DNA from: Leptolyngbyaceae cyanobacterium MAG.088
GTDB lineage: Bacteria; Cyanobacteriota; Cyanobacteriia; Phormidesmidales; Phormidesmidaceae
Assembly (NCBI GenBank): GCA_019634055.1
Contig: JAHQVZ010000189.1
Location: 1 to 34,954 of the forward strand
Reading direction: 5' to 3'
Length of the DNA stretch: 34,954 nt
The stretch's first letter is position 1. Each line of letters begins with the position of its first letter. The translations under genes and the position numbers were made by a program. The notes below the pieces were generated by a model. The model made no database searches. It saw only the letters and a program-made list of their open reading frames with translations, and was not told the DNA's origin. Positions 14,461-19,928 of the stretch are shown piece after piece.

Positions 14461-15969
14461 ATGACTCTACGTGAGTTGCTAGCACAATTACCTGCGGGGT
14501 TAGTGCCCACTATTGAGCATCCGGGTTTGGATCAAACAGTGTCCGGGCTCTGTACCAATTCGAAAAACTGCCAGCCTGGCGATGTGTTTATTGGCATGCC
14601 AGGGACTCGGGTGGATGGCGGTGAATTTTGGCCAAGTGCGATGGAGAAGGGTGCGATCGCAGCCATCATTTCCCACAATGCCTTACAAAAACAACCTGCC
14701 ACCGAGTCATCCAGTCTGTTAATTCCTAGTCAAGATATCCCCACCCTGTGCGGTGAGATTGCGGCGGCGTTTTACCACTACCCTGGTAAAACCCTAAAGC
14801 TTGTAGGTGTGACGGGCACGAACGGTAAAACAACCACGACCCATGTGATTGAGCATTTTCTCAATGCGGCCGAGATGCCCACGGGGTTACTCGGTACTCT
14901 TTATACGCGTTGGCCTGGTCATCAAGAGACTGCAGTACATACAACGCCATTTCCGGTAGATTTACAGCGAGAGTTGGCCAAAGTGATGGGGGCTGGGTGT
15001 CAGCACGCCATTATGGAAGTCAGCTCCCATGCCCTGGCACAAAAACGTGTTTGGGCGTGTCCGTTTGAGGTGGCTGTCTTTACCAATCTCACCCAAGATC
15101 ATCTCGATTATCACAAAGACTTTGAAGACTATTTTGAAGCCAAGGCCCTGCTATTTAGCCCTGACTATCTTATCGGTCGTGCCATTATTAATAGTCGAGA
15201 TCCCTATGGGCAAAAACTGATCGGTCGGCTAAAGGCTGACCAGGTGTGGACCTATCATATTGACGATACGGCTGCTGATTTACACACCACCGATCTGGAC
15301 TATAGTGCAGCGGGGGTAAATGGCAAGCTAGTGACTCCTCTGGGTAATGCGGCGTTTACCTCGCCATTGGTGGGTCGCTTTAATTTAGAAAATTTATTAG
15401 CAGCAGCAGGGGCTGCACTGCATTTAGGGGTCTCTCTCGACGCTTTGATTGCTGCGTTAGCTGCATTTGGTGGCGTTCCTGGGCGAATGGAACGGGTCCA
15501 GATCGGTCCAACTCAGGATATTGGTGTCATTGTGGACTATGCCCATACGCCTGACAGTTTAGAAAATGCTCTGCGGGCAGCGCGTCCCTTTATTACTGGT
15601 CAATTGATTTGTGTGTTTGGCTGTGGTGGCGATCGAGATCGCACCAAGCGTCCTCAAATGGGACGGATTGCCCACGCACTGGCCGACCGCATTGTCGTCA
15701 CCTCTGATAACCCGCGTACGGAAGACCCCCAGCAAATTTTGGCCGATGTGGTGGCTGGCATTGAGGCGACGTTAGGTGAGGATGAGGTGATTTGCGATCG
15801 CGCTGCTGCAATTCAACAAGCAATCCTCTCTGCTCAACCGGGTGATGGGGTCCTTATTGCTGGTAAAGGTCACGAAGATTATCAGATCTTGGGTACCGAA
15901 AAAATTCATTTTGATGATCGTGAGCAGTCTCGGTTGGCGTTGAATATACGCCTAACTCCATTGGTCTAA
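14461..15969 (+). CDS. murE: UDP-N-acetylmuramoyl-L-alanyl-D-glutamate--2,6-diaminopimelate ligase
   Basis: MurE adds the third stem-peptide residue during peptidoglycan precursor synthesis in the cytoplasm. The 502-residue protein has all three Mur-ligase domains: an N-terminal UDP-binding part ('LCTNSKNCQPGDVFIGMPG'), the ATP-binding centre 'GVTGTNGKTTTTH', 'EVSSHAL', 'FTNLTQDHLDYH', and the C-terminal 'IVVTSDNPRTEDP'. The 'DNPR' motif is the known marker for meso-diaminopimelate as the substrate, as opposed to lysine. Length and domain order are normal. It lies 39 bp after the glutaredoxin-like gene. A 7-bp inverted repeat follows the stop codon. Confidence 0.97.
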   Translation: MTLRELLAQLPAGLVPTIEHPGLDQTVSGLCTNSKNCQPGDVFIGMPGTRVDGGEFWPSAMEKGAIAAIISHNALQKQPATESSSLLIPSQDIPTLCGEIAAAFYHYPGKTLKLVGVTGTNGKTTTTHVIEHFLNAAEMPTGLLGTLYTRWPGHQETAVHTTPFPVDLQRELAKVMGAGCQHAIMEVSSHALAQKRVWACPFEVAVFTNLTQDHLDYHKDFEDYFEAKALLFSPDYLIGRAIINSRDPYGQKLIGRLKADQVWTYHIDDTAADLHTTDLDYSAAGVNGKLVTPLGNAAFTSPLVGRFNLENLLAAAGAALHLGVSLDALIAALAAFGGVPGRMERVQIGPTQDIGVIVDYAHTPDSLENALRAARPFITGQLICVFGCGGDRDRTKRPQMGRIAHALADRIVVTSDNPRTEDPQQILADVVAGIEATLGEDEVICDRAAAIQQAILSAQPGDGVLIAGKGHEDYQILGTEKIHFDDREQSRLALNIRLTPLV

Positions 15970-16100: not shown

Positions 16101-16856
16101 ATGGATGCTTTGACTGTCAGGACATCCGCATTAACAACGCCCCATTTGTCTAATGAGACAACACATTCGTCTGCAGTTGATCTTGAGTTTCTAAAAACGG
16201 CTACCCAAGAGCTTAACAATCCAATTACGACGATTAAAACAGCCTTGACGTTGCTCAGCTCACCCACCCTGAAATCGCAGCAGCGTGAGCGTTATTTGCA
16301 GATGATTGGTCAAGCGTGTGAGCGGCAAAGCCATCTGATTAATGATGTCTTTAAACTTTTAGAACTCCAAATTGCTCCCCAATCCATAGGTTTGGCTAAA
16401 GTACAACTTTGGAATCTGGTGCCTGGGGTGGTCAGTACGTATCAACCTTTGGCAACAGAGCACGATATTTTGTTGGCCTATACGGTGGCGAATCACTTGC
16501 CCCCTGTACTGGCGATTGACTCCCACCTCAAACAAGTACTAATTAGTTTGCTGAGCAATAGAATCCAGTGTGCAGAGTCACGGCGTAAAGCGGCATCGAG
16601 TCGTATTTGGGTGACGGCGAATCAGTGCAGCGATGACAAAGTTGCCTTGATAGTGCAAGATGACGGGCGTGGTATTGCACCTTCGGTGCTACCCCAGGTC
16701 TTTGATTCATTTAATCGCAATAACTCTGACGGATCTGGCCTGAGTCTGACACTGGTGCAGCAGCTATTAATCCAATGTGGTGCTTCTATCTCTGTTAGTA
16801 GTACCCCCGGTAAAGGGACTGCGTTTACTATCCTGCTAAAGGTGGCGGCTGATTAA
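16101..16856 (+). CDS. Histidine-kinase-like protein lacking the phosphoacceptor His
   Basis: This 251-residue protein has HisKA-like and HATPase_c-like parts but no sensor domain, membrane segment or receiver. The H-box reads 'TQELNNPITTIKTALTLL': Gln36 stands where the phosphorylated His of 'HELRTP' normally is. The ATP-binding half looks usable: 'LISLLSNRI' keeps the key Asn153 of the N-box, 'DDGRGIAP' is the G1 box and 'GSGLSLTLVQQ' the G2 box. It may therefore bind ATP without autophosphorylating, acting as a scaffold, partner kinase or phosphatase-like regulator; this is inference. The ATG is preceded by AGGGAG. No response regulator gene is nearby. Confidence 0.8.
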   Translation: MDALTVRTSALTTPHLSNETTHSSAVDLEFLKTATQELNNPITTIKTALTLLSSPTLKSQQRERYLQMIGQACERQSHLINDVFKLLELQIAPQSIGLAKVQLWNLVPGVVSTYQPLATEHDILLAYTVANHLPPVLAIDSHLKQVLISLLSNRIQCAESRRKAASSRIWVTANQCSDDKVALIVQDDGRGIAPSVLPQVFDSFNRNNSDGSGLSLTLVQQLLIQCGASISVSSTPGKGTAFTILLKVAAD

Positions 16857-16937
16857 CTCAACTGACAATCTGGGGTGGCGTTATGATAGACCCCGGATGG
16901 CAAGTATTAATCTGAAGCCACTTGCCTTTGGTTGATT

Positions 16938-17042
16938 GTGTTAGAGAGAGTTCGTATTCAAAATTTTCGCTGTCTTCGGGATGTCACTCTGGAGTTAGCG
17001 ATGAAATTCTTACAGGGTGGCGGCTCCTGGCCCCGTCATTAA
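16938..17042 (+). pseudogene. Relic of the N terminus of an AAA-family (RecF/OLD-like) ATPase
   Basis: From the GTG at 16938 the frame reads 'VLERVRIQNFRCLRDVTLEL', which is the characteristic opening strand pair of SMC/RecF/OLD-type AAA ATPases just before the Walker A motif. The next residues should lead to 'GPNGSGKS', but the reading instead becomes 'AMKFLQGGGSWPRH' and stops. No Walker A is found in any frame before xseB. A different frame just after it ('LIVLLVDSDDQPRAERDA') has protein-like character and may be the tail of the same or a neighbouring lost gene. The gene appears to have been truncated by internal deletion. Confidence 0.5.
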
Positions 17043-17143: not shown

Positions 17144-17371
17144 TTAGTCTGATTCGTCTGGCATCAAGGTCTCGATTAGAATTTGAGCCTGCTGCTGTTT
17201 TTCTTGTAAGAAGTTATCGCATTTTTTTAACTCGGTGACTGCTTTTTCAAACTGCTCAAAAATATCGGCTAATGGCAACTCACCGGTTTCTAAGTTAGTG
17301 ATAATGGCTTCTACCTGTTCAACAGAGGCTTCATAATTCCAGGTTTCAGCAGCTTTTTTAGCTCTGGGCAT
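17144..17371 (-). CDS. xseB: Exodeoxyribonuclease VII small subunit
   Basis: The 75-residue protein has the XseB pattern 'SVEQVEAIITNLETGELPLADIFEQFEKAVTELKKCDNFLQEKQQQAQIL', a helical hairpin that wraps the large subunit XseA. Exonuclease VII degrades single-stranded DNA in both directions in the cytoplasm. The small length is normal. The partner gene xseA lies 1.3 kb away on the same strand, separated by a WD40 gene on the opposite strand, so the two are not a simple operon here. Confidence 0.92.
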   Translation of the reverse strand: MPRAKKAAETWNYEASVEQVEAIITNLETGELPLADIFEQFEKAVTELKKCDNFLQEKQQQAQILIETLMPDESD

Positions 17372-18704: not shown

Positions 18705-19928
18705 TTACTCCTCATTGATTTTCAATACTTGTGCATCCAGTTGTCCCTGACCAAGCTGCACAGAAATCTGATCGCCGGGGGCAAGCTCGCTAGTGTTTGT
18801 AACAACATTCCCTGATGACTCTCTAACCAAAGCATACCCTCGCCTTAAAACGGCAGCCGGATCTAAGGTAGAGAGTTTTTCCGTGAGTAATTGATGCTGA
18901 TGCTGGGCTGTTTTCAGGTGTTGTTGGAATGCTTGAAGCACCCGTTGAGTGCGCCATTGCTGTGCTTGTTGAGCTTGTTCTAAATAGCGATTGGGCTGCA
19001 GGCGCTGTAGACGTAGGGAAAGCTGCTGTAGCGCTTGCTTATGGTGATAAATTTGAGTGCCGGTGGCTTGGGCCAACTGCTGTAGGAGCTGTATTTGGGC
19101 ACCATACAAATCGCTGAGGGCCGGTACGATGTGTTCTGCTGCGGCAGTAGGTGTGTGGGCACAAACGTCAGCGACCAAGTCGGCTAGCGATTCATCCCGT
19201 TCGTGGCCGATGCCGGTAATCACTGGAATGGGGCATGTTGAGATCGCCCGCACCACCCGTTCATCATCAAAACACACCAGATCCTCAACGGCCCCGCCGC
19301 CCCGACCCAGCAGCAAGACATCTGCCCTGCTATCAGCACTTACCCGCTCAATTGCCTGGACGATAGATCTAGGAGCCTGTGCTCCTTGCACAATAGCCGG
19401 AGACAGCAAGACCTTTAACCCTGGATGTCTTTGATTAAGCGTTTGTTGAATATCTCCCCAAGCTGCAGCCTGGGGAGAGGTGACCACTGCTATACAGTCA
19501 GGTAAATCTGGTAGAGGACGTTTGCGTCCTTGATCAAAAAGGCCTTCACTGGCGAGACGATTGCGTAGTTGACGATAGCGTAATGCTTGCAGTCCCTCCC
19601 CAGCAGGAAGTACCTGCCATGTGGTTAGTTGATAACTACCGCGTTTTGGGTAAACCTTGAGCTGGCCCAGCACCACAACCTGTTCCCCCACCGTTGGCAT
19701 AACCGTCAGTTTTGGCACCTGACTTCGCCAGACTACGGCATTGAGTGTGGCTGAACCATCGGGTTCCTGTAACGAAAAAAAGCAGCCGCTGCCATGTTGG
19801 CGGGCGCTGGATACTTCTCCGATAATCCAAATATTACGGAGATTGTCATCTCCTTCCAGCAGCAATTGGATGTATTCGGTGACACCGGCTACACTGATTG
19901 CTTTGAAGTCTAGGGTCTCCGCTGCCAT
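18705..19928 (-). CDS. xseA: Exodeoxyribonuclease VII large subunit
   Basis: The 407-residue protein matches XseA: an N-terminal OB-fold ('IWIIGEVSS...GSGCFFSLQEPDGSATLNAVVWRS'), the central nuclease part ('VVTSPQAAAWGDIQQTLNQRHPG', 'LLLGRGGGAVEDLVCFDDERVVRAI', 'GIGHERDESLADLVAD', 'HTPTAAAEH') and a C-terminal coiled-coil stretch rich in Gln that binds several XseB copies. It degrades single-stranded DNA to oligonucleotides. A LexA-box-like site lies about 43 bp upstream of its ATG, shared with divergent recA. The xseB gene is displaced by a WD40 gene. Confidence 0.95.
   Translation of the reverse strand: MAAETLDFKAISVAGVTEYIQLLLEGDDNLRNIWIIGEVSSARQHGSGCFFSLQEPDGSATLNAVVWRSQVPKLTVMPTVGEQVVVLGQLKVYPKRGSYQLTTWQVLPAGEGLQALRYRQLRNRLASEGLFDQGRKRPLPDLPDCIAVVTSPQAAAWGDIQQTLNQRHPGLKVLLSPAIVQGAQAPRSIVQAIERVSADSRADVLLLGRGGGAVEDLVCFDDERVVRAISTCPIPVITGIGHERDESLADLVADVCAHTPTAAAEHIVPALSDLYGAQIQLLQQLAQATGTQIYHHKQALQQLSLRLQRLQPNRYLEQAQQAQQWRTQRVLQAFQQHLKTAQHQHQLLTEKLSTLDPAAVLRRGYALVRESSGNVVTNTSELAPGDQISVQLGQGQLDAQVLKINEE

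Follow-up and report, generated by a model that had tools for sequence, protein, structure and literature searches.

A murE-linked pseudo-histidine kinase of Cyanobacteriia and a paralogue with the reciprocal lesion: a candidate split HisKA kinase

The murE locus and its short Gln-type protein

The window, i.e., the whole stretch of 34,954 nucleotides analysed here (contig JAHQVZ010000189.1 of Leptolyngbyaceae cyanobacterium MAG.088), carries a gene for a short Gln-type pseudo-histidine kinase, designated Q-HK, directly behind murE (Table 1). Its translation contains FLKTATQELNNPITTIKTAL, and the start codon is backed by the M-D-A-(S/L) beginning conserved in sister species. Pfam places HisKA at aa 29-84 (E 3e-10) and HATPase_c at aa 141-248 (E 1.2e-20); no Pfam domains beyond these two were found in the protein. 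The AlphaFold model is well folded (pLDDT 84.7) and its structural matches include the HisKA kinases HK853, ZraS and WalK, as well as DivL (4q20, E 2e-16).

Table 1. Features of the Q-HK locus in the window and the H-HK gene of the same genome
Feature	Position	Strand	Remarks
murE (UDP-N-acetylmuramyl-tripeptide synthetase)	14461..15969	+	directly upstream of Q-HK, same strand
Q-HK, short Gln-type pseudo-histidine kinase	16101..16856	+	251 aa; HisKA + HATPase_c, no DICT; orthologue of DICT-HisKA-HATPase_c proteins
Gln36 codon CAA, phospho-His position	16206..16208	+	residue counts across 142 cores in the text
N-box Asn153	16557..16559	+	invariant, 142/142 family cores
5-aa insertion 3' of the N box	16581..16595 (approximate)	+	window copy only; sister species lack it
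G1 box Asp187-x-Gly189-x-Gly191	16659..16673	+	present in window Q-HK
G2 box GSGLS	16731..16745	+	last Gly replaced by Ser215; Gly in 141/142 relatives
Remnant of AAA_15/AAA_21 ATPase gene	16932-17042	+	a sister species has the intact gene here (L123:9815-10786)
75-aa ORF	17144-17371	-	resembles exodeoxyribonuclease VII small subunit
xseA	18705-19928	-	
H-HK of the window genome	G000:C161:5692-7170 (L268:769-2286)	+ in L268	separate contig from Q-HK; full-length

The first-pass annotation had put Gln36 at the phospho-His position, and the codon, a profile alignment and the family counts given below bear this out. In the profile alignment Gln36 stands opposite the genuine His of the paralogue H-HK described below (GQELRTPL vs AHEIRTPL), so the protein lacks the phospho-acceptor His of an active HisKA histidine kinase. 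No second H-box-like context was found around any other His of the window protein, and no conserved His column was found in the family alignment; therefore the real H-box is not located elsewhere in Q-HK, a possibility which the annotation itself had raised. Its statement that the ATP-site boxes are kept holds for N153 and for D187, G189 and G191 of the G1 box. It is only partly right for the G2 box, which is recognisable but reads GSGLSL, a GLSL variant confined to the window copy. Together with the insertion behind the N box, this substitution could weaken ATP binding by the window copy.

Among orthologue loci with enough upstream sequence, murE adjoins Q-HK in 41 of 64. Since the short window gene lies directly behind murE like most orthologues, it is a true orthologue and not a stray paralogue. 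Many cyanobacteria have a glutaredoxin-like DUF836 gene immediately 5' of murE and Q-HK and in the same orientation (33 orthologue loci, e.g., L070:1984-2472 +). A promoter and terminator scan around Q-HK gave no excess over shuffled sequences. Downstream, the window retains a remnant (VRIQNFRCLRDVTLEL) of an ATPase gene. It is followed by an ORF whose likeness to the exodeoxyribonuclease VII small subunit was judged from the sequence without a profile search; this ORF shares its strand with xseA, and a WD40 gene lies between them.

A fixed Gln, an invariant ATP site and the loss of DICT

A contig search with the window protein alone returned no relative, while an alignment query succeeded. 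Orthologues were present in 44 of 59 relatives. In the phylum sample (n=292), a single-copy, clearly separated Q-HK was present in 36 genomes (at least 226 bits, next best 181), and relatives from named genome records were all cyanobacterial. Members were selected by similarity to a Gln-containing profile. The possible bias toward Gln is discounted because a single column cannot yield a 45-bit gap, and because most orthologues tested carry DICT, a domain that played no part in the search.

At the phospho-site, the 142 distinct kinase cores of homologues in Cyanobacteriia have Gln in 126 cases, Arg in nine, Leu in four, Glu in two and His in just one; all seven sister species have Gln. The homologue alignment suggested by the annotation thus finds the Gln fixed, and its refuting condition, His in close homologues, fails. 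In the ATP site, the N-box Asn, the G1 Asp and the first G1 Gly are each found in 142/142 cores and the G2 Gly in 140-141/142, with motif counts of 148/148 for DxGx and 147/148 for LGL. The Glu following the phospho-site is kept in 134/142 cores and replaced in eight. Four residues past the His position Thr or Asn occurs in 110/142, and I, A, M, S, V, P or L elsewhere; the E/DxxT/N motif of the window copy is ExxN.

In a maximum-likelihood tree computed without the phospho-site column, the Q-HK family comes out as a single clade (support 99), every early branch of which has Gln; Arg and Glu are derived states. Gln is therefore ancestral: the acceptor His was lost once, early in Cyanobacteriia, and the ATP site was retained. 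The annotation's reading of the protein as a pseudokinase is supported, as the 142 cores and the tree describe an ancient pseudo-histidine kinase with a strictly conserved ATP site. A recent mutation or a sequencing error as the source of the Gln was rejected, as the residue is fixed family-wide. Glu, Arg or Leu occupies the phospho-site in several sublineages (L088, L142, L089-L097, L190, L204, L216, L225), and most of these replacements are one base change away from a Gln codon. The only member with His (L077:4272-5693 +; CAC from CAG) is nested among Gln relatives and represents a natural revertant.

Q-HK orthologues are typically 430-600 aa long with an N-terminal DICT domain (PF10069), known from cyanobacterial signalling proteins. 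DICT is missing only from the eight species of the window genus (247-287 aa) and from G048, a distant genome (272 aa), and was lost separately in the two. The window protein thus shares the monophyletic core and the non-His acceptor site of the DICT-HisKA(Q)-HATPase_c family and lacks its N-terminal domain. The absence of a sensor, as annotated, is true of this protein and not of the family. Gene fission, with the DICT half living on as its own gene, was considered and rejected, since DICT proteins carry other partner domains. Of the two in the window genome, one is a DICT-GAF-HisKA kinase whose His is canonical and the other has another, non-kinase C-terminal part; in sister species, the DICT proteins (363-373 aa) continue into a GAF-like C-terminal part. 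The domain was lost and not split off.

The Q-HK reading frame is intact in all eight species of the window genus. Within the genus its dN/dS is about 0.05-0.13 (dS being saturated), compared with 0.05-0.07 for murE, so the short gene is maintained under purifying selection.

H-HK, a paralogue with the reverse lesion

Clustering of the ORFs neighbouring Q-HK revealed a convergent neighbour, H-HK, with HisKA as its only Pfam match. It keeps the complete acceptor box H-E-x-R-T-P: in 80 sequences His, Thr and Pro are each found in 80/80 and Glu in 78/80. Its CA region lacks the G1 (DxGx) and G2 (GxGL) boxes in every sequence (0/80 for both), and the N-box Asn is present in only 23/80. In the H-HK of the window genome Pfam finds HisKA and not HATPase_c. 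Weak HATPase_c matches persist in 22 of 34 copies (E up to 0.1, best 7e-7), so the presumed loss of ATP binding is read from the missing motifs. The HExxT motif, kept by H-HK, is used in both phosphotransfer to and dephosphorylation of response regulators.

H-HK aligns to Q-HK (hhalign E 8e-26) from the end of the DICT region through the linker and DHp to the CA region, and a single clade of the two families is not rejected (AU p 0.82). By these comparisons, Q-HK and H-HK look like ancient paralogues. The two genes lie within 6 kb of each other in 22 of 73 genomes from 10 families, always convergent and often less than 110 bp apart; being convergent, they are not co-transcribed, and their neighbourhood could partly reflect old synteny. 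In the window genome they are located on different contigs. All 73 genomes with Q-HK, including this one, have H-HK, which carries almost no weight for the pair because H-HK is near-universal. The mirror-tree comparison is also uninformative on co-evolution: given MurE, Q-HK and H-HK correlate with r 0.60, and the control of Q-HK against XseA was equally strong (0.63).

H-HK is single-copy in Cyanobacteriia and absent from two listed class genomes of the sample; even the smallest genomes of the class, including small picocyanobacteria-like ones, carry it. It is present and equally degenerate in many lineages without Q-HK, where a regained ATP site was looked for and not found. Since H-HK persists there with its ATP site still degenerate, the pairing is not obligate in these lineages, and H-HK must depend on a different kinase or serve a different role in them. 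At 264 aa, the G048 H-HK is the single short copy in the set of 80, so that N-terminal domains are lost from both Q-HK and H-HK in this genome (L284:734-1528 and L107:4992-5810, both on the minus strand). The H-HK gene of G048 and an apparent petA gene converge and overlap or almost touch.

A possible split kinase and its alternatives

As judged by reciprocal conservation in the sequences, acceptor and catalytic motifs are divided between two proteins. We propose, with a probability of about 40%, that a HisKA kinase is naturally split here, with Q-HK as its catalytic half, which would phosphorylate the His of H-HK in trans. The annotation had suggested that the pseudokinase may heterodimerise with a true kinase; the heterodimer has become our leading model, with a His-only paralogue as the likely partner in place of a complete kinase. 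More broadly, and tentatively, the mirror-lesion paralogues may constitute a natural split HisKA kinase made of a near-universal acceptor subunit and a patchy murE-linked catalytic subunit, the latter reduced to bare DHp-CA in the window genus.

In the proposed scheme Q-HK goes back to a DICT-HisKA-HATPase_c kinase in which the His to Gln exchange took place at the point indicated by the tree. Q-HK has kept its ATP pocket intact ever since, and H-HK its acceptor box, with G1 and G2 gone. The two proteins would pair as a heterodimer by way of their homologous DHp helices. Q-HK would then bind ATP in its CA domain and use it to phosphorylate the H-HK His in trans, and the phosphoryl group would move from H-HK to some response regulator. 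In the window genus, where Q-HK has no DICT input, signals would have to be sensed by the N-terminal domain of H-HK.

The reciprocal conservation of the acceptor in H-HK and the ATP site in Q-HK argues for such a pair, as do their paralogy and the convergent neighbourhood; the presence of H-HK in every Q-HK genome agrees with it but, H-HK being near-universal, adds almost nothing. The independent truncation in G048, which affected both proteins, points weakly the same way. The R/L/E substitutions and the loss of Glu in 8/142 cores agree with a subunit that makes no use of its own acceptor box. The closest experimental precedent is CheA3/CheA4 of Rhodobacter sphaeroides, where the phospho-acceptor His and the ATP-binding kinase domain are likewise on two proteins, and the domains of EnvZ can be split in vitro (PMC3591291); by analogy, both speak for the proposal. 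CheA3 and CheA4 differ in belonging to the CheA class (P1-P5) and to a chemotaxis cluster and in having domains deleted, not point-degenerate, whereas Q-HK and H-HK both have the full HisKA and CA fold with reciprocal lesions, and the transfer between them is predicted from sequence. In Corynebacterium, the ChrS(CA-fs) pseudokinase also heterodimerises with a paralogous kinase, HrrS, but it arose through a laboratory-evolved frameshift in the CA domain, and its His is kept but unused (PMC9491836).

Several observations argue against a split kinase. H-HK is degenerate also in lineages without Q-HK, where Q-HK cannot be the only kinase. The genes are on separate contigs in the window genome, are convergent and not co-transcribed where adjacent, and the mirror-tree control failed. 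Some H-HK copies retain weak HATPase_c matches, and the window Q-HK has changes in G2 and near the N box.

A possible, though doubtful, alternative is that Q-HK works like DivL of Caulobacter, as an allosteric pseudokinase neither donating nor receiving phosphate, which, depending on whether ATP or a response regulator is bound, would shift the conformation of another kinase or enzyme, perhaps one tied to cell-wall synthesis through murE. Both are cytoplasmic regulators with the HisKA fold and a fixed non-His phospho-site, DivL is among the structural matches of Q-HK, it functions without kinase or phosphatase activity (PMC4211667; PDB 4q20), and the linkage to murE would fit. DivL, an alphaproteobacterial protein, has Tyr in place of Gln and PAS sensors in place of DICT (or of no sensor, as in the window protein). 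It is also a weak ATP binder (57 uM, TNP-ATP) with an occluded site (PMC4211667), in contrast to the invariant ATP-site residues of Q-HK, and this alternative leaves the reciprocal paralogue next door unexplained. It is unlikely that Q-HK is a phosphatase-only sensor, in which kinase activity has gone with the His and E-x-x-T/N serves to remove phosphate from a response regulator, ATP or ADP being the cofactor. This is a known HisKA phosphatase motif (cited in PMC3591291), the window copy has it and the Glu is mostly kept, but the variation at both positions suggests a constraint below that expected of an active site, while H-HK keeps the motif in 78-80/80.

About as improbable is a phosphotransferase hub of the Spo0B/ChpT/PhyT type made by H-HK and fed by receivers of hybrid kinases, with Q-HK a pseudokinase outside its pathway, sharing ancestry and old synteny with H-HK and no pathway in common. 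The persistence of H-HK without Q-HK would suit this, and so would its degenerate CA domain, since PhyT/PhyP, ChpT and Spo0B also combine a DHp bearing an active His with a degenerate ATPase domain (PMC5898713). H-HK differs from them in its N-terminal DICT-related domain and its reciprocally defective paralogue, and its phosphotransfer role is putative; that convergent adjacency is kept in 10 families and that both proteins lost their N-terminal domains in G048 suggests, weakly, a common role with Q-HK. Finally, Q-HK of the window genus could be a decaying remnant drifting to a pseudogene after sensor loss. The loss of DICT, the N-box insertion, the Gly to Ser change in G2 and the decayed AAA gene next door would all agree with this, but the gene is intact in eight species, its product is modelled as well folded and purifying selection largely refutes decay, leaving it very improbable.

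In the open-access literature searched, we found no description of the Q-HK or H-HK family. Experimental knowledge of split kinases comes mainly from chemotaxis (CheA3/CheA4), and ultrasensitive or bistable switching has been proposed as a property that they confer. If the split-kinase proposal is true, Q-HK and H-HK would offer a natural counterpart to them in the commonest kinase class, built from full-length HisKA paralogues whose reciprocal lesions are deeply conserved. In database counts 3.66% of HisKA proteins are without HATPase, and these were flagged as possible split kinases (PMC3591291); Q-HK/H-HK would be a concrete candidate. The L077 revertant, where His was restored naturally, makes a useful test case, and the near-universal acceptor-only H-HK merits attention irrespective of the role of Q-HK. 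The split-kinase proposal, if true, would also provide a function for two conserved cyanobacterial genes so far matched by profiles only as generic sensor-kinase domains.
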